Source of the DNA: Oscillospiraceae bacterium
GTDB taxonomy: Bacteria; Bacillota; Clostridia; Oscillospirales; Oscillospiraceae
Reading direction: 5' to 3'
DNA length: 41,428 nucleotides
NCBI GenBank assembly: GCA_015068065.1
Contig: SVLE01000012.1
Location: forward strand, 1 to 41,428
Part shown: positions 3,254 to 22,619 of the stretch, in pieces
How positions within the stretch are numbered: position 1 is the stretch's first letter
Layout of the letters: each line of letters starts with the position of its first letter
Translations under genes and position numbers: made by a program
Notes under the pieces: model-generated
Databases searched by the model: none
Seen by the model: only the letters and a program-made list of their open reading frames with translations
What the model was told of the DNA's origin: nothing

Positions 3254-3532
3254 TCACAGTTTATTCATCAGCCATGCCGCCGCCCCAAGCTGTACAGCCA
3301 TCAGGACGGGCAGACCGTATTTGAACTGGCCGTGTCTGGTCTTGTGGTGAAAGGTCTTCATTCCGGCAATAACGCCCACCGTTCCGCCCAGCAGTGCAGC
3401 GGTAAACAGGGTCTTTTCCGGAATACGCCAAGCGCCGCGCTTGGCCTTCCACTTATCCAGTCCCATGAGCAGAAAACCCGCCGCATTTATGGCCGCCAGC
3501 CACAGCAAAACCGTCTGGGGCAGCTCATTCAT
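3254..3532 (-). CDS. DUF1294 family small membrane protein
   Basis: MNELPQTVLLWLAAINAAGFLLMGLDKWKAKRGAWRIPEKTLFTAALLGGTVGVIAGMKTFHHKTRH; 'DKWxAKxxxWRIPExTL' and 'HKTxH' fit DUF1294. Start moved to internal ATG 3532, overlapping the ftsH stop. Confidence 0.8.
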   Translation of the reverse strand: MNELPQTVLLWLAAINAAGFLLMGLDKWKAKRGAWRIPEKTLFTAALLGGTVGVIAGMKTFHHKTRHGQFKYGLPVLMAVQLGAAAWLMNKL

Positions 3533-5603
3533 CGCTCTTCTCCTGTTCGGCAGGCTCTTCCGCCCCGGCCTCTGCCCCGGTTTTGGGTTCGGGGGCGGCC
3601 ACAGGCTCACTGACCATGTGGATGTTGCGGGCAGGAGGCTCGATATCCCCGGTCAGTCTGCCCTTGGAACGGGTGGATGCGTAGGCATCCTCCACCAAGG
3701 CAGGGTCCCGCCCCTCAATGATGGCAACCATTTCGCCGCCGGTGATGGTCTCCTTATCCAGCAGGTATTCCACCACCTTGTGCATATCCTTCAGGTTTTC
3801 CTGAATGACCTTGACCGCATCGGCATAGCAGGCGTCCAGAATGACCTTGACTTCCTTGTCCATAGCCGCGGCGGTGTCCTGGGCGCAGTCCAGCCCGTAG
3901 CCGCCGTCCAGATACTGGTTGCGGACGGAGGCCAGTGCCATCATGCCGAACTCCTCGCTCATGCCGAACATGGCCACCATCTTCCGGGCAATGTCGGTGG
4001 CCTCCTGAATATCCTGAGAGGCACCGTTGGTCATGGTGTTCAGCACCACCTGCTCGGCGGCACGGCCGCCCATAGACACGGCGATCTTGGCCATGAGCTC
4101 TTCCTTGGTGCGCAGGTTGGTCTTATCCTCCTCAGGCATGAGCAGGGTATAGCCCAGAGAGCCCTCGGTGTGAGGTACGATGGTGATTTTCTGCACGGGT
4201 TCGGCATTTTTCTGCTTGTAGGCCACCATGGCGTGCCCCACCTCGTGATAGGCCACCAGCTTGCGTTCAAAGGGGGTGAGCACGGAATTTTTCTTCTCGC
4301 TGCCGGCGATGACAAATTCAAAGGAGGCCAGCAGATCTTCCTGATTGACAAAGCGTCGGCCCTGACGCACCGCACGCAGGGCGGCCTCGTTGGCCAGATT
4401 GGCCAGATCCGCACCCACACAGCCCGCCGTGGCAAGGGCGATCTTCTTCAGATCCACATCCTCAGCCAACTTGATCTTGCGGGTATGCACCTGCAGGGTG
4501 GCAAGCCGTCCGGCCAGATTGGGACGATCAATGGTAATGCGCCGGTCAAAGCGGCCGGGACGCAGCAGAGCGCTGTCCAGTACTTCGGGCCGGTTGGTGG
4601 CGGCCAGAACGATGACGCCCTTGGTGGGGTCAAAGCCGTCCAGTTCCGCCAACAGCTGGTTCAGGGTCTGCTCCCGCTCGTCATTGCCGCCCATGCGGTT
4701 GTCACGGGATTTACCGATGGTGTCGATCTCATCGATAAAGATGATACAGGGAGCCATCTTGGCCGCCTCTTTAAACAAGTCACGCACACGGCTGGCACCC
4801 ACGCCCACGAACATCTCCACGAAGTCGGAACCGCTGATGGAGAAGAAGGGAACTCCCGCCTCACCGGCCACAGCCTTGGCCAGCAGGGTCTTACCAGTAC
4901 CCGGAGGGCCCACCAGCAGCGCGCCCTTAGGCAGCTTGGCGCCAATTTCGGTGTATTTGCCGGGATTGTGGAGAATGTCGATGATCTCCTGCAGGGACTC
5001 CTTGGCCTCGTCCTGCCCGGCCACATCGGCAAAGGTGACTCCGGTGGACTTTTCCACATAGACCTTGGCGTTGGCCTTACCCACGCCGCCGATACCGCCC
5101 ATGCCGCCGCCCTTGCTCATGCTGCGCATGAGGAAGAAGAACAGGGCCACCATGACCACCATGGGCAGGAAACTGAGCAGCACGTCAAACACAGAGATGC
5201 CCTCTGCCTCGTCGCTGCCGTACCCCACGTCATGCGCTTCCAGCAGCAGGATCAGTTCCGGGTCATACTGGGGAAGAACAGGAGAATAATACTCCACTTC
5301 GATCCCCTCTTTGCCCAGAATGGAGATGAGGGTGTTCTCTTTCTCGTTCTCCTCCCCCAGATCCACCGTTACACCCTCTTTCAGGGTGATGGTGTAGCGG
5401 GTGGGCCCCATGTGGACATACTCCACTTTATCCTCCTCTACCCACGTGCGGAAGGTAGAGTAGTCCACCTGCACACTGTTGGCATCGGAAAACATGGCAG
5501 TGCAGCTGTTGAATATCAGGGCCAGAAACAGCGCCCAGCCCACGATATTTATGATGCCGACGATCTTCGGCTTGTTTCCGTTTCCTTTTTTCTGCGGTCT
5601 CAT
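3525..5603 (-). CDS. ftsH: ATP-dependent zinc metalloprotease FtsH
   Basis: Walker A GPPGTGKT, SRH region, HEVGH zinc motif, two N-terminal TM segments. Confidence 0.97.
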   Translation of the reverse strand: MRPQKKGNGNKPKIVGIINIVGWALFLALIFNSCTAMFSDANSVQVDYSTFRTWVEEDKVEYVHMGPTRYTITLKEGVTVDLGEENEKENTLISILGKEGIEVEYYSPVLPQYDPELILLLEAHDVGYGSDEAEGISVFDVLLSFLPMVVMVALFFFLMRSMSKGGGMGGIGGVGKANAKVYVEKSTGVTFADVAGQDEAKESLQEIIDILHNPGKYTEIGAKLPKGALLVGPPGTGKTLLAKAVAGEAGVPFFSISGSDFVEMFVGVGASRVRDLFKEAAKMAPCIIFIDEIDTIGKSRDNRMGGNDEREQTLNQLLAELDGFDPTKGVIVLAATNRPEVLDSALLRPGRFDRRITIDRPNLAGRLATLQVHTRKIKLAEDVDLKKIALATAGCVGADLANLANEAALRAVRQGRRFVNQEDLLASFEFVIAGSEKKNSVLTPFERKLVAYHEVGHAMVAYKQKNAEPVQKITIVPHTEGSLGYTLLMPEEDKTNLRTKEELMAKIAVSMGGRAAEQVVLNTMTNGASQDIQEATDIARKMVAMFGMSEEFGMMALASVRNQYLDGGYGLDCAQDTAAAMDKEVKVILDACYADAVKVIQENLKDMHKVVEYLLDKETITGGEMVAIIEGRDPALVEDAYASTRSKGRLTGDIEPPARNIHMVSEPVAAPEPKTGAEAGAEEPAEQEKSDE

Positions 5604-5841: not shown

Positions 5842-6624
5842 ATGAAAGAACGCACTCCCCTGCGCCGCTCCGCTCCCATCGAAGCGGAAAATGACGGTGT
5901 GATCGAGGGCCGCAATGCCGTAATAGAGGCACTGCGTGCCGGCGTGACCATTGACAAAATTTTTATTATGAAGGGCGAAACTGATGCCACGCTGGGGCAC
6001 ATCGCCTCCTCCGCCCGGGAAAGGGGCATCGTGGTGGTGGACGCCGACCGGCGCAAGCTGGACGGCATGAGCCGCACCCACTCTCATCAGGGCGTGATCG
6101 CTCTGGCCGCCGTGCGGGAATATGCCAGTGTAGAGGATATCCTCAATGCCGCCCGTGAAAAAGGTGAAGCACCTCTGATCGTGGTGTGTGACGAGCTCAG
6201 CGACCCCCACAATCTGGGCGCTGTCATCCGTACCGCTGAGTGTGCCGGTGCACATGGTGTCATCATTCCCAAGCGTCGCTCCGCGGGTCTGACCGCCATT
6301 GTAGGAAAAACTTCCGCCGGCGCGGTGGCCCATCTGCCCGTGGCCCGGGTCCCCAATATCCCCGCTCTGCTCAAGCAACTCAAGCAGGAGGGTGTGTGGG
6401 TGTTCGGCACCGCCGCCGATGCCGACACCACCCTTTACAAGGCTGACCTGAAGGGTCCTGCCGCCATCGTCATTGGAAGCGAGGGGGACGGTATGGGCCG
6501 TTTGGTGGCCGAGAACTGCGATTTCAAGGTCAGTATTCCCATGAAGGGACATATCAACTCCCTGAATGCCTCCGCCGCCGCCGCCATTATGCTCTACGAG
6601 GCGGTTCGGCAGCGGCAACTCTAA
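5842..6624 (+). CDS. rlmB: 23S rRNA (guanosine-2'-O-)-methyltransferase RlmB / TrmH-family SPOUT methyltransferase
   Basis: VIEGRNAVIEALRAG...LSDPHNLGAVIRTAECAGAHGVIIPKRRSAGLT...IPMKGHINSLNASAAAAIMLYE: SPOUT motifs. Confidence 0.93.
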   Translation: MKERTPLRRSAPIEAENDGVIEGRNAVIEALRAGVTIDKIFIMKGETDATLGHIASSARERGIVVVDADRRKLDGMSRTHSHQGVIALAAVREYASVEDILNAAREKGEAPLIVVCDELSDPHNLGAVIRTAECAGAHGVIIPKRRSAGLTAIVGKTSAGAVAHLPVARVPNIPALLKQLKQEGVWVFGTAADADTTLYKADLKGPAAIVIGSEGDGMGRLVAENCDFKVSIPMKGHINSLNASAAAAIMLYEAVRQRQL

Positions 6625-6745: not shown

Positions 6746-6791
6746 GATAAGCCTCTCCCCCCAATCAAACGCAATTTTTAAGGAGCCGTAT

Positions 6792-9041
6792 ATGGTCGAC
6801 CATGATGAGAAAAAACTGAATCAGGACAAAGAGCTTGCTCAGCTGCGCTCCATGGTTGGCGATGCGGACGGGGGTGATTTCTCTCTGGACGATATTCTGG
6901 CCGAGTATTCCCAACGCAAGTCCCCGGGGAGTGTGGTCAATATGACTGCCGAAGAGGAAGATGACGATAATCTGCTCCTGTTCCCCGGGATTCTGCCCGA
7001 TCCTCCCCCGCCCATTGAGGATTCCTCTGTGGACGATAATGCGTCTGATGTGGAGGACGAGCAAAACGAGCACTGCCTTCCGGAGGAAGAAGAACCCGCA
7101 GAAGCGGTGCAGCCCGCTCCCGATGAACCGGAGCCTTCCCCCCAGTCTCATACACCGTCCGCGGACAACGTAATCTCTTTCCCGGAAAAGGAAGGCCGCC
7201 TGTCGGCTTTGCTTCACGATTTGTCCCGGAAGGCGGATGACTACGCCGAGCAGATGTTTCAGGACGAGGACATGCCCTCCAGCCCGGAGACCCGCCGCAT
7301 GGAGGAACTGATCCCGGGCGTGGATGTAGAGAACGCCCCTACGCGGGAGCGCCGCCCCCGCCGGGAGGACCCACCCGAACCAGACCTCTCCCCCCAGGAG
7401 CTGGCCCAGCAGTATGCCAAAGGTCTCGGTAGCCTGCGTACCCGCATGCTGTTGGTCTTTTTGCTGCTGCTCCCTGCCCTGTATCTGATGGTGGAACATC
7501 TACTCCCTATCCCCTCTATCCCCCACCCTGCCGATTTGAGTCAGCCTCTGCTCACGCTGCCCCTGAAAGCCTGGATCTGCGCCGGTCTGCTGGGGGTATG
7601 TATGTTGCTCTCCTTTGACGTATTGAAAAACGCCGTATCCCGTCTGCGCCGCGGCCGTTTCGGCATGGACACCGTCCTGTTGCTTGCGTGCGCCGCCTCC
7701 CTGCTGGACGGTCTGACCATGCCCCTGCTGCTTCCCAGACAGGAACTGCCCTACTGCGCGCTGAACATACTTGCCCTGTGGCTGTCCATGCGGGGAGAAT
7801 TTCACCGTCGCCGGGGTCTGCGCCTTGCCTGCCGCGGAGCGGCCGCCAGTGCCGAGCCCTATCTGGTCACTCTGGACGAAGGCAAGTGGAACGGGCGCGA
7901 TACCTACACCAAGCATTCCGGCACCCCGGACGGCTTCGGCAGTCAGATTCAGGCCGATGACGGAGCGCAACGCATCTTCCGTGTGTTCTGCCCTGTCATT
8001 CTGATCGGCTGCGGCGTTCTGTCCGTGCTCTCCTCGGTGGGTGCCGGGGAGCCCCACCGCATTCTCTGGGCTTTGTCCGCCACGCTGACCGCTTCCTGTA
8101 CCCTGTGCGCTCCACTGATTTTCAGCCGCCCCTTCCACATGCTGGCCCGCCGTCTGGTCCAGAGCGGTGCTGCTCTGGCCGGTTGGCCCGGAGCAGCCAA
8201 TGCCCGCAAGGGTGACGGCATTCTGCTTACCGATTTGGACCTTTTCCCTCCCGGCGCCGTTTCCCTGAACGGGATCAAGGTGTTCGGCGACTGGTCTACC
8301 GAGCGGGTGATTGGCTACACCGCCACCCTGATCCACGCCTCGGGCAGCGGTTTGGACAAGCTGTTCCATGATCTGCTGCGCACACAGGGCGCAATCTACC
8401 GGCAGGCAGAGCGTCTGTGCTGTTATGAGGGCGGTGGTCTGTCCGCCAATATCCGGGGCAATCAGGTCCTTGTGGGCTCCGCTGCATTCATGAATCTGAT
8501 GGAGGTGGAACTGCCTCAGGGTCTGAATGTAAAAAATGCCGTATTCTGTTCCATCGACGGAGAGCTGGCCGGTATTTTTGCATTGAACTACTCCCTGCCT
8601 GACGTAGTATTCCCCTCCGTGGCCGCCCTGCTACAGGAAAAGCTATCCCCCGTGCTGGCCACCCGGGACTTCAATCTGATCCCCGCCATGCTGCGTCAGC
8701 GGTTTAAGCTGGCCTCCAACCGCATGGACTTCCCTCCGGTGGAGCGCCGCCGGGAGCTGTCCGATCCGGAGCAGCCCCACAACGCCACCCTCACCGCCGT
8801 GCTGTGCCGGGAGGGCATCTATCCATTCTCAGAGGCAGTGGTCGCTTCCCGCCGCCTGCGTGTGTCCGTGCGCGCAAATGCCATCCTGGCCTGTATCGCA
8901 TCAGTTCTGGGTCTGCTGCTGGCAGCCTATCTGACCGGTGTGGGCGCAGTGGCCTCCATCTCCCCCATCAGCCTGCTGGTTTACCTGAGCCTGTGGTTTG
9001 TTCCCGCGTGGCTCATTACCGGCTGGGTGAATCAATACTGA
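6792..9041 (+). CDS. Membrane protein resembling a degenerate P-type (P1B-like) ATPase with a long acidic N-terminal extension; predicted pseudoenzyme
   Basis: RBS aaggag before ATG 6792. Colinear echoes of P-type ATPase: HSGTPDGFGSQI, LTASCTLCAPLIFSRPF (CPC region), ARKGDGILLTDLDLFPPGAVSLNGIKVF (DKTGT region), YEGGGLSANIRGNQVLVGSAAFM (N-domain), FSEAVVASRRLRVSVRANAILACIASVLGLLLAAYLTGVGAVASISPISLLV (last TM pair). Catalytic residues are missing. Confidence 0.65.
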   Translation: MVDHDEKKLNQDKELAQLRSMVGDADGGDFSLDDILAEYSQRKSPGSVVNMTAEEEDDDNLLLFPGILPDPPPPIEDSSVDDNASDVEDEQNEHCLPEEEEPAEAVQPAPDEPEPSPQSHTPSADNVISFPEKEGRLSALLHDLSRKADDYAEQMFQDEDMPSSPETRRMEELIPGVDVENAPTRERRPRREDPPEPDLSPQELAQQYAKGLGSLRTRMLLVFLLLLPALYLMVEHLLPIPSIPHPADLSQPLLTLPLKAWICAGLLGVCMLLSFDVLKNAVSRLRRGRFGMDTVLLLACAASLLDGLTMPLLLPRQELPYCALNILALWLSMRGEFHRRRGLRLACRGAAASAEPYLVTLDEGKWNGRDTYTKHSGTPDGFGSQIQADDGAQRIFRVFCPVILIGCGVLSVLSSVGAGEPHRILWALSATLTASCTLCAPLIFSRPFHMLARRLVQSGAALAGWPGAANARKGDGILLTDLDLFPPGAVSLNGIKVFGDWSTERVIGYTATLIHASGSGLDKLFHDLLRTQGAIYRQAERLCCYEGGGLSANIRGNQVLVGSAAFMNLMEVELPQGLNVKNAVFCSIDGELAGIFALNYSLPDVVFPSVAALLQEKLSPVLATRDFNLIPAMLRQRFKLASNRMDFPPVERRRELSDPEQPHNATLTAVLCREGIYPFSEAVVASRRLRVSVRANAILACIASVLGLLLAAYLTGVGAVASISPISLLVYLSLWFVPAWLITGWVNQY

Positions 9042-9123: not shown

Positions 9124-9154
9124 TTGACTGTAAACCTACTTGATGGCTTATTGT
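9124..9154 (+). promoter_or_regulatory. Putative MerR-type promoter with long spacer (TTGACT-N19-TATTGT)
   Basis: TTGACT 9124-9129, TATTGT 9149-9154; imperfect dyad GTAAACC...GGCTTAT in the spacer. Confidence 0.45.
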
Positions 9155-9186
9155 ATAGGCAGAAACCGCCGAAGGGAGGCATACAT

Positions 9187-10701
9187 ATGACCATTAAAGA
9201 GATCGAACAGACCACCGGCCTGCCCCGGGCCAGTGTGCGCTTTTACGAGAGCGAGGGCTTCATTTCCCCCACCCGTGGCGAGAACGGCTACCGGAACTAC
9301 GCCCAATCCGATTTGGACACCCTATTAAAAATCAAGCTCCTGCGTAGGCTGGACATCCCGCTGGAGGACATCCACGCTCTGCAAAAGGACCAGCTTTCTC
9401 TGGACAGTGTGCTGTCCTGCGCCCTGACCCGTCTGGAGCAAGAGACGGCCCATTTGGAGCAGGCCCGGGAGTTGTGCCGCGCCCTGCGGCAGGAGCAGTC
9501 CAGCTACGCAACCCTGAATCCCCGTCCCTACTTACAGCGGCTGGACACCCCCGCCCCCACCGCGGAGGAGGCCGTCCCCCAGCCCACCTACGACCGCCTG
9601 CCCGAGGCACACTGTCCCTTCCGCCGGTACTTTGCCCGCAACTTCGACCTGTTTCTTTACAATGTCCTGTTTCTGCTGTTCTGTGATCTGGTTCTGCGGA
9701 TCAACACCGCCAGCGGTCACCCGGCACTACGTCTTTGCATAGGGCTGGTTTCCATGGGTCTGACCCTGCTGCTGGAGCCACTGATGCTCCACTTCTTCTG
9801 CACCACCCCCGGCAAATACCTCTTTGGTCTGAAGATCACTCGTGGCGACGGCAGCCCCCTTGGGCTGGGCGAGGCCTTTTCCCGCACCATGGGCGTTCTG
9901 GTCCGGGGCATGGGTCTGGGCCTGCCCATCATCGCCACCATTACCCACGGCTACTCCCTGTACCAGATCTACAAGGGGCACCGCCTGGGCTGGGACTATG
10001 ATCTGGACGCGGTGGCCTACTGGGACGGCAGCCGTCCACATCAGTCCTACTGGGAGTCCTCCAAAAGCTATCTGAAGCTCGTCGCCGCCGCTGTGCTGAC
10101 GGCAGGTTGCTTTTTTGCCCTGTTCCAAAGCCAGACACAGGCTATGGCCCCCATCCATCAAGGGGATATGACCGTGTCCCAGTTCGTGGAAAACTACAAC
10201 GACACCCGCCGTTTCCGGTTGCAGGCTGATCAGCGGCTGGACAGTCTGCTCACCGACAGCGGAGCCTTTGAGAACCTGCCCGCCCCCAACAATGTCATCA
10301 TCGTTGATCCCTTTGAAGATGCACCCCCGCTGAAATTCGACTTCCGGACAGACCCCTCAGACGGCCTGCTCAAAGAAGTGTCCTTCTCCTATTATGCTGA
10401 GAACGTCACCACCTCCATCCCCGTAGAGGAGATGGCCGCGGTGGTATGGTCTCTTCTCTACGGGCGGGAGGACATTTCCAAGGGCGAGCTGAATCAGGTG
10501 CATAATGCGATCATCAAGCTGTCCGACACATCTGTGCCTTCGGATCGCATTTCCTATCATCACGATTTTGAGGGGGCGAAAGTGGACTTCACCATGACCA
10601 CCAGTCAAGGTTACGCCTTTACCTCCTGGGGCACGCTTTTCCCGCTCCCAGGTACTCAGGCCACCTGTCAGATGGAGTTTTCTGTTTCCCTCACAAACTG
10701 A
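9187..10701 (+). CDS. MerR-family HTH regulator fused to an RDD membrane domain and a C-terminal probable extracytoplasmic domain
   Basis: N-terminus MTIKEIEQTTGLPRASVRFYESEGFISPTRGENGYRNYAQSDLDTLLKIKLLRRLDIPLEDI is MerR wHTH; RYFARNFDLFLYNVLFLLF...GKYLFGLKITRGDGSPLGLGEAFSRTMGVLV is RDD-like; final TM (LVAAAVLTAGCFFALF) and ~180-aa tail. Confidence 0.85.
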   Translation: MTIKEIEQTTGLPRASVRFYESEGFISPTRGENGYRNYAQSDLDTLLKIKLLRRLDIPLEDIHALQKDQLSLDSVLSCALTRLEQETAHLEQARELCRALRQEQSSYATLNPRPYLQRLDTPAPTAEEAVPQPTYDRLPEAHCPFRRYFARNFDLFLYNVLFLLFCDLVLRINTASGHPALRLCIGLVSMGLTLLLEPLMLHFFCTTPGKYLFGLKITRGDGSPLGLGEAFSRTMGVLVRGMGLGLPIIATITHGYSLYQIYKGHRLGWDYDLDAVAYWDGSRPHQSYWESSKSYLKLVAAAVLTAGCFFALFQSQTQAMAPIHQGDMTVSQFVENYNDTRRFRLQADQRLDSLLTDSGAFENLPAPNNVIIVDPFEDAPPLKFDFRTDPSDGLLKEVSFSYYAENVTTSIPVEEMAAVVWSLLYGREDISKGELNQVHNAIIKLSDTSVPSDRISYHHDFEGAKVDFTMTTSQGYAFTSWGTLFPLPGTQATCQMEFSVSLTN

Positions 10702-10855: not shown

Positions 10856-11941
10856 ATGAGCAACGATCGTGTCTACAACTTTTCCGCCGGCCCCTCCATG
10901 CTTCCGCTGTCTGTACTTCAGCGCGCGGGCGCGGAGATCACCAACTATGGCGGCTCAGGCATGTCAGTGATGGAGATGAGTCACCGATCTAAAGTGTTCC
11001 AAACTATTTTTGACGACACACAGGAGAAGTTCCGCCGTCTTCTGGGCGTACCCGAGGGGTACAAGGTCCTGTTCCTGCAGACCGGCGCCACCGGCCAGTT
11101 CTCCATGATCCCCCTGAACCTGATGAGCCTGACGGGCAAAGCGGACTACGCCGTGACCGGCAACTTCTCCACCCTCGCCGCCAAAGAGGCCAAAAAGTAC
11201 GGCACCGTCAACATTGCCGCTGACACCTCCGACTGCAACCACACCCGCATCCCCGTCCAGTCCGAACTGAAGCTGGACTCGGACGCTTCCTATTTCTACT
11301 ACTGTGCCAACAACACCATCTACGGTACCGAGTGGCAGTACGTTCCGGAAACTGGCAAGGTGCCGTTGGTGTGCGATATGTCCTCCGACATCATGTCCCG
11401 CCCCGTGGATGTGTCCAAGTACGGCATCATCTACGCCGGTGCTCAGAAGAACATGGCTCCCGCCGGTCTGACCGTGGTGGTCATCCGGGAGGATCTGGCC
11501 GGCCACGAGCTGCCCTACACCCCCATCATGATGAACTACAAGACCATGATCGACAAGGACTCCATGTACAACACCCCTCCCTGCTGGTGCATCTACATGC
11601 TGGGCCTCATGCTGGACTGGGTGGACGAACAGGGCGGTGTCGCCGGAATCGAGAAGATCAAGGGTGCCAAAGCCGCTATGCTGTACGACACGCTGGACAA
11701 CTCCAAGCTGTTTACTTGCCCCGCTCAGCCCGGGTCCCGCTCCGATATGAACGTGGCCTTCCGCACCGAGTCCGCCGAGCTGGACGCCAAGTTCATCGAC
11801 CAGGCCTCCGCCGCCGGATTTGTCAACCTGAAGGGTCACCGTAACGTGGGCGGCATGCGTGCCTCCATCTATAATGCCATGCCCACCGACGGTGTGGAGA
11901 AGCTGTGCGACTTTATCAAGACCTTTGATAAGAACAATTAA
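10856..11941 (+). CDS. serC: Phosphoserine aminotransferase
   Basis: VYNFSAGPSMLPLSVLQRAGAEI...GMSVMEMSHRS...YAGAQKNMAPAGLTVVVIREDL. Confidence 0.97.
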   Translation: MSNDRVYNFSAGPSMLPLSVLQRAGAEITNYGGSGMSVMEMSHRSKVFQTIFDDTQEKFRRLLGVPEGYKVLFLQTGATGQFSMIPLNLMSLTGKADYAVTGNFSTLAAKEAKKYGTVNIAADTSDCNHTRIPVQSELKLDSDASYFYYCANNTIYGTEWQYVPETGKVPLVCDMSSDIMSRPVDVSKYGIIYAGAQKNMAPAGLTVVVIREDLAGHELPYTPIMMNYKTMIDKDSMYNTPPCWCIYMLGLMLDWVDEQGGVAGIEKIKGAKAAMLYDTLDNSKLFTCPAQPGSRSDMNVAFRTESAELDAKFIDQASAAGFVNLKGHRNVGGMRASIYNAMPTDGVEKLCDFIKTFDKNN

Positions 11942-15465: not shown

Positions 15466-15513
15466 GTTTGTAAAACCCGCGCAAGTGCGCGATAATTATT
15501 GGAGGGAAAAGAA

Positions 15514-17130
15514 ATGAGAACAAGAAACCGTTGGCTCAGCCGTGTAGCCGTCATCATGATGATGGTACTGGCTCTGGCCACCACCGTCTTCGCCACCGGC
15601 GAGGAAGCTGAAGCTGTCAGCAGCTTCTACAACAGCGCCTGGTCCCTGCTGCCCCCGGTCATCGCCATCGTGCTGGCCCTGATCACCAAGGAGGTCTACT
15701 CCTCCCTGTTCATCGGTATCCTGGCCGGTGGTCTGATGTATGCCAACTTCAACTTTGAGGGCACCATCCTGCACGTGTTCAACGATGGTATTATCGCCTC
15801 TGTCACCGACAGCTGGAACATGGGCATCATTGTGTTCCTGATCATTCTGGGTGCTATGGTATGCCTGATGAACAAGGCCGGCGGTTCCGCCGCCTTCGGC
15901 CGCTGGGCCGAGACCCACATCAAGTCCCGCGTGGGTGCGCAGTTGGCCTCCATCCTGCTGGGCTGCCTGATCTTCATTGACGACTACTTCAACTGCCTGA
16001 CCGTGGGCAGCGTAATGCGTCCCGTGACCGACAAGCACAACGTGTCCCGCGCCAAGCTGTCCTACATCATCGACGCCACCGCCGCCCCCGTGTGCATCAT
16101 CGCCCCCATCTCCTCCTGGGCCGCTGCTGTGGCTGGCTTTGCTGAGGATGGTCAGGGCTTCAACCTGTTCCTGCGCGCCATCCCCTATAACTTCTATGCC
16201 CTGCTGACCATCGTGATGATGGTGGGTCTGGTGGTCATGAATGTGGACTTCGGCCCCATGTCCAAGTATGAGAAAAACGCCATCGAGAACGGTGATTTGT
16301 TCTCCGGCTCCAACCCCTACGCCAACGATGAGAACGATGCTGCTTCCGGCAAGGGTATCGTGCTGGATCTGGTCTTCCCCGTGATTTCCCTGATCGTAGC
16401 CTGCGTCATCGGCATGATCTACACCGGCGGTTTCTTCTCCGGTGAGAACTTCATCGACTCCTTCGCCAACTCCGACGCCTCTGTGGGTCTGATGCTTGGC
16501 TCTGCCGTGGCTCTGGTCATCACCATTGCCTACTACATGATTCGCCGTTCCATGAAGTTTAAGGAAATGATGAGCTGCATCCCCGAGGGCTTCAAGGCCA
16601 TGGTGCCCGCCATCCTGATCCTGACCTTCGCCTGGACCCTGAAGGCCATGACCGATTCTCTGGGTGCCAAGGAATATGTTGCCGCTCTGGTTGACAGCGC
16701 CAAGGGCATCACCGTGCTGCTGCCCGTTATCGTGTTCGCCGTGGGTTGCGTACTGGCCTTTGCCACCGGTACCAGTTGGGGCACCTTCGGTATCCTGATC
16801 CCCATCGTGCAGAGCGCTCTGGATATGAGCGAGCCTCTGGCCATCGTGTGCATCTCCGCCTGTATGGCCGGTGCCGTGTGCGGTGACCACTGCTCCCCCA
16901 TCTCCGACACCACCATCATGGCTTCTGCCGGTGCTCAGTGCGACCACGTCAACCACGTGTCCACTCAGCTGCCCTACGCCATCTCCTGTGCTGTCATCTC
17001 CGGTATCGCTTACCTGCTGGCCGGTGTGCTGGGTGTGATGGGTGCCCCCGTCATCATCGCCCTGCCTGTGGGCGTGGTGCTGATGCTGGGCTTCCTGTTT
17101 GTAATGAAGTCCCGCCAGCCTAAGGTGTAA
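15514..17130 (+). CDS. NhaC-family transporter; riboswitch context suggests lysine transport (LysW-like)
   Basis: Start moved to ATG 15514 behind ggaggg. SSLFIGILAGGLMYANFNFEGT...CLIFIDDYFNCLTVGSVMRPVTDKHNVSRAKLSYIIDATAAPVCIIAPISSWAA...FATGTSWGTFGILIPI...CGDHCSPISDTTIMASAGAQCDHVNHV: NhaC superfamily. Confidence 0.88.
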   Translation: MRTRNRWLSRVAVIMMMVLALATTVFATGEEAEAVSSFYNSAWSLLPPVIAIVLALITKEVYSSLFIGILAGGLMYANFNFEGTILHVFNDGIIASVTDSWNMGIIVFLIILGAMVCLMNKAGGSAAFGRWAETHIKSRVGAQLASILLGCLIFIDDYFNCLTVGSVMRPVTDKHNVSRAKLSYIIDATAAPVCIIAPISSWAAAVAGFAEDGQGFNLFLRAIPYNFYALLTIVMMVGLVVMNVDFGPMSKYEKNAIENGDLFSGSNPYANDENDAASGKGIVLDLVFPVISLIVACVIGMIYTGGFFSGENFIDSFANSDASVGLMLGSAVALVITIAYYMIRRSMKFKEMMSCIPEGFKAMVPAILILTFAWTLKAMTDSLGAKEYVAALVDSAKGITVLLPVIVFAVGCVLAFATGTSWGTFGILIPIVQSALDMSEPLAIVCISACMAGAVCGDHCSPISDTTIMASAGAQCDHVNHVSTQLPYAISCAVISGIAYLLAGVLGVMGAPVIIALPVGVVLMLGFLFVMKSRQPKV

Positions 17131-19405: not shown

Positions 19406-20743
19406 TTACTTATTGGTTCTTCTCCAGATACCCATCTTTTCCGCGTCCTTGATAAGCTGCTCACGGAAATCGGGGTGGGCGATATTAATGATCTGCTCGG
19501 CCCGCTCCCAGGTGGACAGGCCCTTCATGTTGACCATGCCGTACTCGGTGACGATATAGTGCACACAGGTGCGGGGGTCGGTGGCAATGGAGCCGGGAGT
19601 CAGGGTGGGAACGATGCGGCTCTTCAGCGTGCCGTCCTTTCCGGCGACAGTGGAGGACATACAGATAAAGCTCTTGCCGCCCTTGGACAGATAAGCGCCC
19701 AGAGCAAAGTCCAGCTGGCCACCGGTACCGGAGATATGCTTGATGCCGGCGGACTCGGCGTTAACCTGACCGAACAGGTCCATGTCGATGGCGTTGTTGA
19801 TGGAGATGAAGTTGTCGATCTGGCTGATGACGTGGACATCGTTGGTGTAGTCTACGGGAGCGCCCATGACCTCAGGGTTGTGGTCCATGTAGTCGTACAG
19901 CTTCTGGCTGCCGGCTGCGAAGGCAAATACCTGACGGCCCTTGTCCAGGGTCTTGTACTTGCCGGTGATCTTGCCGGCCATGGCCATGTCAACAAAACCG
20001 TCCACGTACATCTCGGTGTGCACGGCCAGATCCTTCAGGTCGGACTGGGCGATCATGGATCCGATGGTGTTTGGCATGCCGCCGATACCCAGCTGCAGGC
20101 AGGCTCCGTTGGGAATCTGAGGCACCACCAGATTAGCCACGGCACGGTCCACCTCGGTGGGCTCACCGCCGCCGCCCAGCTGAGCAACGGGAGGATTGTC
20201 CCCCTCCACAACCATATCAACGTCCTTGATATTGATTTCACAGCCGTTCAGACCGTTGACCCAGGGCAGGTTCTCATTGACTTCCAGGATAATCACCTTG
20301 GCCTTGTCCAACAGGTCGGCGATGTGGGAGCAGGCCAGCGCATAGCTGAAGTTACCATGCTTGTCCATGGGGGTAACCTGGATCATGGCCACGTCCACGG
20401 TAAGGTTATCGCGGTAGAATCGAGGCAGTTCGGAATAGCGCATGGGGCTAAAATAGCCCATACCTTTGGCGATGATCTTGCGATCAATGCCGCTGCAGTG
20501 CCAGCTGTTCCACGTGAAGTGCTCGCCGGCGTCCTCCGCCTTGGCGATCTCGGGCATCCACATGGTAACGCCGCCGCGGACCTTCACATCGTACAGCTCA
20601 TTCTGACGGGCGGCCAGGGCCTTGTCCAGGGCAATGGGGTGGTTGGTACACCAACCGTAGTCCACCCAGTCACCGGACTTGATAACCTTGACGGCTTCGG
20701 CGGGGGTAGTCAGCTTCTGCTGGTACATAGCTTTGTAATCCAT
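19406..20743 (-). CDS. Acetyl-CoA hydrolase/transferase family; probable butyryl-CoA:acetate (or 4-hydroxybutyrate) CoA-transferase
   Basis: Start moved to ATG 20743 behind [49 protein letters not shown]...[14 protein letters not shown]...[18 protein letters not shown]...[21 protein letters not shown]...[56 protein letters not shown]; closely resembles remembered Faecalibacterium/Roseburia But proteins. Confidence 0.8.
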
Positions 20744-20762
20744 GATCGTTTCCTCCATATCT

Positions 20763-22619
20763 TTATCTGTCATCACTTAAATAGTAAGGCTTCATCAGGC
20801 TCTGCTGCTCGGTAGAGTCCTTGGTGCGGCTGCGGGTGGGTTGCTCCTGCCGGCGCTGAGGCCGCAACTTCTTTTTGGGGTCAGACTGTTCCTGCCTTTT
20901 CGGTGCGGGTTGCTCCTGCTTTGGCCCGGGAAGATTCGTTTTCTTGACAGGCACCTGCTTTTTCTCCTGCCTGGACTGCGGTGTGGGGCCGGCAGGTTTT
21001 TTCTTCCTGCGGCGGCGATTTTTACCCTTACCCTGCTCCGCCTCGGGCGGAGCGGTCACTACCGTGGGCTGAACTGGTCTGCGGGGTGCCAACAGCCGAG
21101 CCGTGGCATCCATAATGCGGTCACCTGCCAGCGGATCAGGCCGGTCAAATTCAACCACGGGCATTTGATTTCCGGTATCCAATCGGATACCGGGCCGGGT
21201 AAGCTTGGGGCGCTCGGTACGCGGGGTGACGGTCTTGGGCTCAACCGTTTTGAGCTGCGGTGCGCTTGCCTTCTCTACCGTCTGCGTGCTTTTTTTCTTT
21301 CTGCGACGGCGCTTCTTTTTGTCCGTCTCCTCCGGCTCCACCGAAGTTGCCACAGGCATCGTCGCCTGCTCCTGTTTCAGGCGCTCTGACTCCCGGCGTT
21401 CCCGGCTGCGTTCCCGGGCAGCCTGCCGGGCTTCGGCATCCTCGGCGTTGACGATTTTGCCCTGCTTATCCCGAACCGGAGCTTCAAAATTCTCCATGGG
21501 CCAGGGATGGTTTTCCATCACCGGAATCTTTTTCCCGGTCAGTTTCTCAATATCCCGCAGCAAGGGTTTTTCACTGAACTCGCAAAGGGCTATGGTTACG
21601 CCTCCCTTGCCCGCGCGTCCGGTGCGGCCGATGCGATGGACATAGGTCTCCGGCACCTCGGGCAGGTTATAATTAAACACGTGGGACAAATCTTCAATGT
21701 CAAGGCCCCGGGCCGCGATATCCGTTGCCACAAGGCAACGCAGTTTTCCCGCCTTAAAATCAGCCAGTGCCTGCTGCCGGGCGGTCTGAGACTTGTTTCC
21801 ATGAATGGCCGCGGAGGGGATGCCGCTCTTTTCAAGATCTCGCGCCACCTTGTTCGCCCCGTGCTTGGTACGGGTGAACACAAGGGCACTGCGCACCTTC
21901 AGTTCCTCCACCAGATGGGCCAGCAGCTTGGTCTTATTGCCCCGGTCCACAAAGCACACGCTCTGCCGGATGACCTCCACCGGGGAGGAGATGGGATCCA
22001 CCGCCACCCGGGCAGGATTGTGAAGCAGAGAGTTGACCAGATCGGTGATCTCCGGCGGCATGGTTGCGGAGAAAAACAGGGTCTGCTTCTTTTGAGGCAG
22101 CCACTTCAAAATCTTCTTCACGTCGTGGATAAAGCCCATATCCAGCATACGGTCGGCCTCGTCCAGCACGAAGATCTCCAGTTTGGACACATCCACAAAG
22201 CCCTGCTGATGCAGGTCCTCCAGCCGTCCGGGGGTGGCGACCAGAATGTCTACCCCCTTTTTCAGTTTATCCACCTGCGGGCCCTGACCCACGCCGCCGA
22301 AAATGACCGCGGTACGCAGGGGCAGGTTTCTGCCGTAGGCCTCAAAGCTCTCCCCGATCTGGATGGCCAGTTCCCGGGTGGGGGTGAGGATGAGCGAGCG
22401 GATGGGATGTCCGTCCGTTTTTCTGCTGTGCAGCCGCTGAAGGATGGGGGTAGCAAAGGCGCAGGTCTTTCCTGTGCCCGTCTGGGCACAGCCCAACACA
22501 TCCCGTCCGATCAAAGCCGGCGGGATGGCCTTGGCCTGAATGGGCGAGGGCTGCTTGTAACCCTGCTCCTCCAGCGCCTTGAGAATGGGGGCGATCAGCC
22601 CCAGATCACGAAATGTCAT
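20763..22619 (-). CDS. DEAD-box ATP-dependent RNA helicase (RhlE-like) with long basic low-complexity C-terminal tail
   Basis: [69 protein letters not shown]; Lys/Arg/Pro-rich tail. Confidence 0.93.

Follow-up and report, generated by a model that had tools for sequence, protein, structure and literature searches.

The Oscillospirales, a major order of gut bacteria, carry a family of membrane proteins that descend from P1B (CopA-like) ATPases and are without the catalytic machinery of these pumps. The gene is a marker of the order and is probably important to it. The member described here lies at 6792..9041 on the + strand of the window, i.e., the whole stretch of 41,428 nucleotides that was analysed, which corresponds to contig C45 of a fragmented 1.68 Mb genome. 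It encodes a protein of 749 aa with an ATG at 6792 and a stop at 9041, and a Shine-Dalgarno sequence AAGGAG (6780..6785, +) is located 6 nt 5' of the ATG. The open reading frame is thus real, and the peptides quoted from it in an earlier sequence-only reading were found at their places. Pseudoenzymes are well known among kinases and proteases. Relative to the papers searched, an engine-less P-type branch that forms a near-universal, single-copy, and synteny-locked gene of a bacterial order is new, and no account of the family was found in searches of the non-subscription literature on bacterial pseudo-P-type ATPases, the rlmB link, FUPA, and transposon essentiality in Faecalibacterium. Whether the P-type fold can perform useful non-pumping work is disputed for human TMEM94/ERMA, and the present family makes this question directly testable. 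If the reading proposed below is true, a heavy-metal pump stripped of its engine would have become a receptor or scaffold in a bacterial group that ranks among the commonest of the gut.

Descent from P1B ATPases and loss of catalytic motifs

Single-sequence searches with the 749-aa protein gave no match in Pfam, no match in the PDB (phmmer), and a weak match in NCBIfam (TIGR01525, E=0.0027). As these searches were blank or weak, profile searches were needed. With hhalign, the family profile matched 16 genuine P1B ATPases of relatives at E 5.5e-9 with a score of 79, compared with 20.7 for the reversed control and 32.9 for the best of 15 column-shuffles. The soluble P/N segment alone reached E 3e-8 against P1B ATPases, and the TM1-2 segment reached E 2.4e-4. 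Moreover, a profile of 44 members matched solely P1B ATPases in the PDB (best 3rfu, E 1.8e-33), and genuine P1B pumps of Clostridia score up to 192 bits with the 44-sequence alignment A4. The AF2 model of the core (pLDDT 91.4, pTM 0.86) contains eight long membrane helices arranged as in P1B ATPases. A Foldseek search of this model against the PDB returned LpCopA (4bbj, E 1.7e-17) as the top match, followed by ATP7B, CopA, ZntA, and KdpB. Similarity of both sequence and fold to the P-type superfamily and its P1B group is therefore significant across the M, P, and N domains. The P1B-type order read earlier from the letters of the sequence, and the high-probability structural match named there as support, were borne out by the profile, hhalign, and Foldseek results.

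Helix topology was derived from AF2 secondary structure together with alignment. The first four membrane helices (residues 212-351; 7425..7844, +) correspond to MA, MB, M1, and M2 according to the AF2 helices and hhalign. They lead into a vestigial actuator domain (residues 352-390; 7845..7961, +) that has lost TGES and is shrunk to a two-strand hairpin in the AF2 model, so the earlier claim that most of the A domain is deleted holds. The following helices M3 and M4 (residues 391-458; 7962..8165, +) contain CTL at 436-438 as a replacement for CPC. The joint alignment with 36 P1B ATPases places the first part of the P domain at 8211..8291 (+), with TDLDLFPPG (residues 480-488; 8229-8255, +) standing in place of DKTGTLTxG. 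As judged from AF2 and alignments, the N domain (residues 501-600; 8292..8591, +) has kept its GGG loop and lost the His of SEHP. In the second part of the P domain (residues 601-640; 8592..8711, +), the alignments show ATRDFN replacing LTGDN and then a deletion of GDGxND. The last two membrane helices, M5 and M6 (residues 677-749; 8820..9038, +), were assigned by AF2 and conservation and include the conserved W735 and P738.

The same losses are found across the order when the motif columns are read from a joint alignment of 44 order-wide members (A4) with 36 genuine P1B ATPases. All 44 members have gaps in place of TGES and GDGxND, the GDGxND segment being deleted rather than mutated. CPC is present in 0/44 members, with its Pro retained in 25/44; DKTGT, the Lys of DKTGT, and the His of SEHP are likewise each found in 0/44, and 43/44 members retain the second Gly in the GxG of the N domain. 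The DKTGTLTxG region reads x-D-x-[DE]-[LI]-F-P across the family. In the ungapped register, the position of the phosphorylated Asp is occupied by T480 in the window protein, not by D481 or D483, and among the 44 members it is T in 19, D in 11, and S in 5, with the remainder among R, K, and Q. LTGD has turned into TRD, its Asp being retained in 41/44. Since some families keep the Asp of the phosphorylation site and most keep that of TGD, residual phosphoryl chemistry is conceivable.

Additionally, the set of DKTGT, TGES, and GDGxND is absent from the ORFs of 40 further loci of Oscillospirales. A single 'DKTGS', in L137, sits in a disordered tail. Conservation across the order is highest in the P1 segment, the N domain, and M6 (W735), and no universally conserved charged residue was noticed in the membrane helices of alignment A4. 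The sequence-only reading had reported the phospho-Asp motif, CPx, TGES, and GDGxND as absent from this one protein; the absence extends to all 44 members, and catalytic residues are missing in all orthologues tested, among which none with intact DKTGT/TGES was found. Its view of the protein as a pseudoenzyme is well supported by sequence, and canonical pumping is very unlikely.

Conservation and distribution in Oscillospirales

With one genome scanned per species, 57 orthologous loci were found at 44-74% identity, with taxon names including Oscillospiraceae, Flavonifractor, Pseudoflavonifractor, Lawsonibacter, and similar. The core (residues 197-749) aligns nearly gap-free with about 80 invariant columns. 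In 40 close pairs, omega (Nei-Gojobori) ranges from 0.06 to 0.23 for the core and from 0.16 to 0.48 for the tail, and the window protein compared with its two nearest relatives gives core values of 0.13-0.15. These low values in core and tail exclude decay and agree with the purifying selection expected earlier for a genuine pseudoenzyme. In a tree with a P1B sample as the sole outgroup, the family is monophyletic against that sample (UFBoot 100) with a long stem, and one origin is the simplest reading. The family is covered by no existing Pfam or NCBIfam entry. Pfam returned nothing for the window protein and a lone weak DUF6594 match among 44 members; NCBIfam returned weak P1B matches only, with a score of 16.6 for the window protein against a cut-off of 346.

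A narrow profile matches 377/401 genomes of the taxonomic family. At E 1e-45, the A4 profile matches 227/245 Oscillospirales genomes and 178/184 of the high-quality ones, in a sample of unequal completeness with many metagenome-assembled genomes. Each matching genome holds one copy, one of which is split across two contigs. Six high-quality genomes are without an A4 match. Four of them (G469, G494, G507, G534) also have no confident rlmB, an indication that part of the assembly is missing. G435 is a case of truncation: after rlmB comes an ORF with MEFSVEDILAEF, and there the contig breaks off. G610 possesses a very divergent member (E 7.8e-37) that directly adjoins rlmB and has lost even DLFP. 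In other orders of the class, the family was found in 0/236 genomes. A spread beyond Oscillospirales was considered and rejected, as the matches there are conventional P1B pumps in which every motif is intact, reaching at most 125 bits per match in the class-wide search versus at least 278 for Oscillospirales members.

The N-terminal tail and the rlmB neighbourhood

The core is preceded by an N-terminal extension containing the short linear motif FSLDDILAEY (residues 30-39; 6879..6908, +). Its presence had been correctly noted before, but its length is about 200 rather than about 220 residues, and it is not uniform. In the full-length AF2 model, residues 1-134 are disordered with a low-confidence helix at 32-39 over the motif (pLDDT around 50), and a better-ordered helix follows at 136-159. 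The latter belongs to a conserved juxtamembrane helical segment (residues 136-171; 7197..7304, +) with AF2 helices at 136-159 and 165-171 and pLDDT up to 84, in which D149, Y151, A152, and M155 are invariant in alignment A2. Across the order, the tails are acidic and Pro/Ala-rich and range in length from 0 to about 900 aa; no Pfam domains were found in those of 400-900 aa. The motif recurs in most families of the order, usually at the start of the tail, with the consensus [FY]x[LVI][DE][DE]I[LI]xE. Two DNA-pattern scans of the genomes of 20 relatives found this pattern mostly in the pseudo-ATPase gene, the rest being unrelated chance matches. Members of about 545 aa without tail or motif exist at L136:1960-3618 and L140:1879-3537 (genomes G418 and G460). 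They are still directly downstream of rlmB and represent natural core-only variants, which means that the motif is not required everywhere. A second conserved tail element, approximately D(I/D/M/P)YYGLxLKxxEEY, was observed in the long-tailed L128, L133, L134, L137, and L138.

The rlmB gene of the window (5842..6624, +) encodes a SpoU-family 23S rRNA 2'-O-methyltransferase (Pfam SpoU_methylase, 3.2e-43, and SpoU_sub_bind). Wherever rlmB was found (84/84 loci), it precedes the pseudo-ATPase gene on the same strand; the gap between the two has a median of roughly 34 nt and measures 167 nt in the window. Upstream of rlmB is ftsH (3525-5603) on the opposite strand. Directly downstream of the pseudo-ATPase is a gene (9124-10701, +) whose product joins a MerR-type DNA-binding domain to an RDD membrane domain, and serC (10856-11941) comes next. 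An EF-G-like translational GTPase is found downstream in 11 of the 32 loci scanned among L128-L167. Besides rlmB, no constant neighbour was found in the loci examined, and none of these loci has a P-type ATPase gene beside the pseudo-ATPase.

Some further genes may be mentioned. The MerR-RDD fusion is possibly a membrane-tethered regulator; a relative occurs further downstream in L011 (6165-7682), and it is not a constant neighbour. An ORF of 704 aa (328-2442, +) matches neither Pfam nor NCBIfam; in several relatives (e.g., L032, L040, L050, and L061), its homologues are found downstream of the pseudo-ATPase, at a distance of a few kb and on the other strand. A butyryl-CoA:acetate CoA-transferase is encoded at 19406-20776 (-) (TIGR03948, E 5e-232), and thus the genome probably makes butyrate. 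An NhaC-like transporter at 15499-17127 (+) resembles Tet(35) in part, with a match (E 4.9e-57) that stays far under the cut-off.

Proposed function and comparison with known systems

Since the reduced fold is preserved by selection, a function other than pumping must exist. Most likely, the protein serves in the membrane as a scaffold or sensor rather than as a pump and uses the tail motif to recruit a cytosolic partner, which is in line with the sensing or scaffolding role suggested earlier. The best explanation overall, to which we give about an even chance, is that a gutted CopA-like copy now acts as a membrane platform with a docking tail. A CopA-like P1B copy ancestral to Oscillospirales has lost the A domain, GDGxND, the Lys of DKTGT, the N-domain His, and CPC. 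It kept its membrane body along with the P and N domains, and the single-copy gene has been retained directly downstream of rlmB. With ATP-driven ion pumping presumably abandoned by the family, a re-specialised P/N head may bind a ligand or protein in the old active-site cleft, where the alignments point to D-x-[DE]-[LI]-F-P and T-R-D-F-N as conserved cleft motifs. The acidic disordered tail would recruit the cytosolic partner via the amphipathic F-[ST]-L-[DE]-[DE]-I-L-A-E-[FY], which probably folds to a short helix upon binding. Because the rlmB linkage is fixed, a reasonable first guess is that the protein is connected with growth, translation, or the control of ribosomes. An order-defining receptor or scaffold whose head binds a cytosolic ligand and whose tail docks a soluble factor, so that the membrane state is tied to ribosome or growth control, is a tentative extension of rather low probability.

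Non-canonical transport might instead persist, either as a passive or gated channel or as an unconventional ATP-coupled cycle of the kind claimed for ERMA/TMEM94. This is unlikely. The eight-helix P1B membrane body is retained under selection, as are the Asp of LTGD in 41/44 and the Pro of CPC in 25/44 members, and ERMA, with the motifs DKQGI and GSSANL and an altered TGES, has been reported to move Mg2+ in dependence on its Asp (PMC13322241). However, CPC, TGES, and GDGxND are missing in all members, the membrane helices of A4 offer no universally conserved charged residue that was noticed, and TMEM94 itself showed neither ATPase activity nor Mg2+ binding in the hands of another group (PMC12134183). 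The case also cautions that activity can be claimed for P-type-like proteins whose motifs are broken. A direct role in ribosome assembly or translation, for example as a membrane anchor or co-regulated partner of RlmB or of the EF-G-like factor, seems quite unlikely despite the invariable rlmB upstream (84/84 loci) and the EF-G-like GTPase downstream in 11/32. Operon position alone is no proof of function, the remaining downstream genes differ between loci, and the EF-G-like one is itself inconstant. Furthermore, the family is missing from other orders of the class, and thus RlmB has no general need of the pseudo-ATPase.

Pseudoenzymes often pair with active relatives, and genuine P-type ATPases are present in 20/20 relatives searched, both of which would suit a protein that regulates a genuine P-type ATPase of its own cell, as a heterodimer or dominant-negative subunit. 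Against this, P1B ATPases are usually held to act as monomers, and the constant neighbour in the loci examined is rlmB and not a P-type ATPase, so such a partnership appears distinctly improbable. A sporulation protein is hardly to be expected. Although spoIVA occurs in 172/184 high-quality genomes and most carriers of the gene also have it, many other orders of the class sporulate yet lack the family, and 9/10 listed high-quality genomes without spoIVA keep the gene, for which reason confinement to spore-formers was rejected. The missing catalytic motifs could also be taken to mean that the gene is a pump copy in decay (a pseudogene) or that the ORF arose by chance. The chance of this is close to nil: it is refuted by the orthologue scan (57 loci, 44-74% identity), the near-universal presence in Oscillospirales, and core omega values of 0.06-0.23 with about 80 invariant columns.

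The preferred platform with a docking tail can be set beside known systems. P1B ATPases (CopA, CopB, ZntA) share with the pseudo-family the helix order MA-MB-M1-M2-A-M3-M4-P/N-M5-M6, the P and N folds, and the GxG loop. They own a full A domain, TGES, CPC, DKTGT, SEHP, and GDGxND, whereas the pseudo-family has lost all of these and keeps A as a hairpin; in place of a Cys-x-x-Cys metal-binding domain, it has the disordered acidic tail. The nearest precedent is eukaryotic TMEM94/ERMA, which combines a P-type fold with altered catalytic motifs and disputed activity. TMEM94/ERMA is an ER protein with 10 helices, a full A-like domain, and the phosphorylation-site Asp, whereas the window protein has eight helices, no A domain, and T480, and kinship is indicated at the superfamily level only. 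The pseudo-family has lost more, namely the A domain, the GDGxND strand, and, in the window protein, the Asp too. FUPA, the functionally uncharacterised bacterial P-type ATPases, resemble the family as P-type relatives of initially unknown role; they include CtpE, later shown to serve Ca2+ uptake (PMC5615198, PMC3573892). In these papers, CtpE is described as a transporting P-type ATPase, in which it differs from the pseudo-family.
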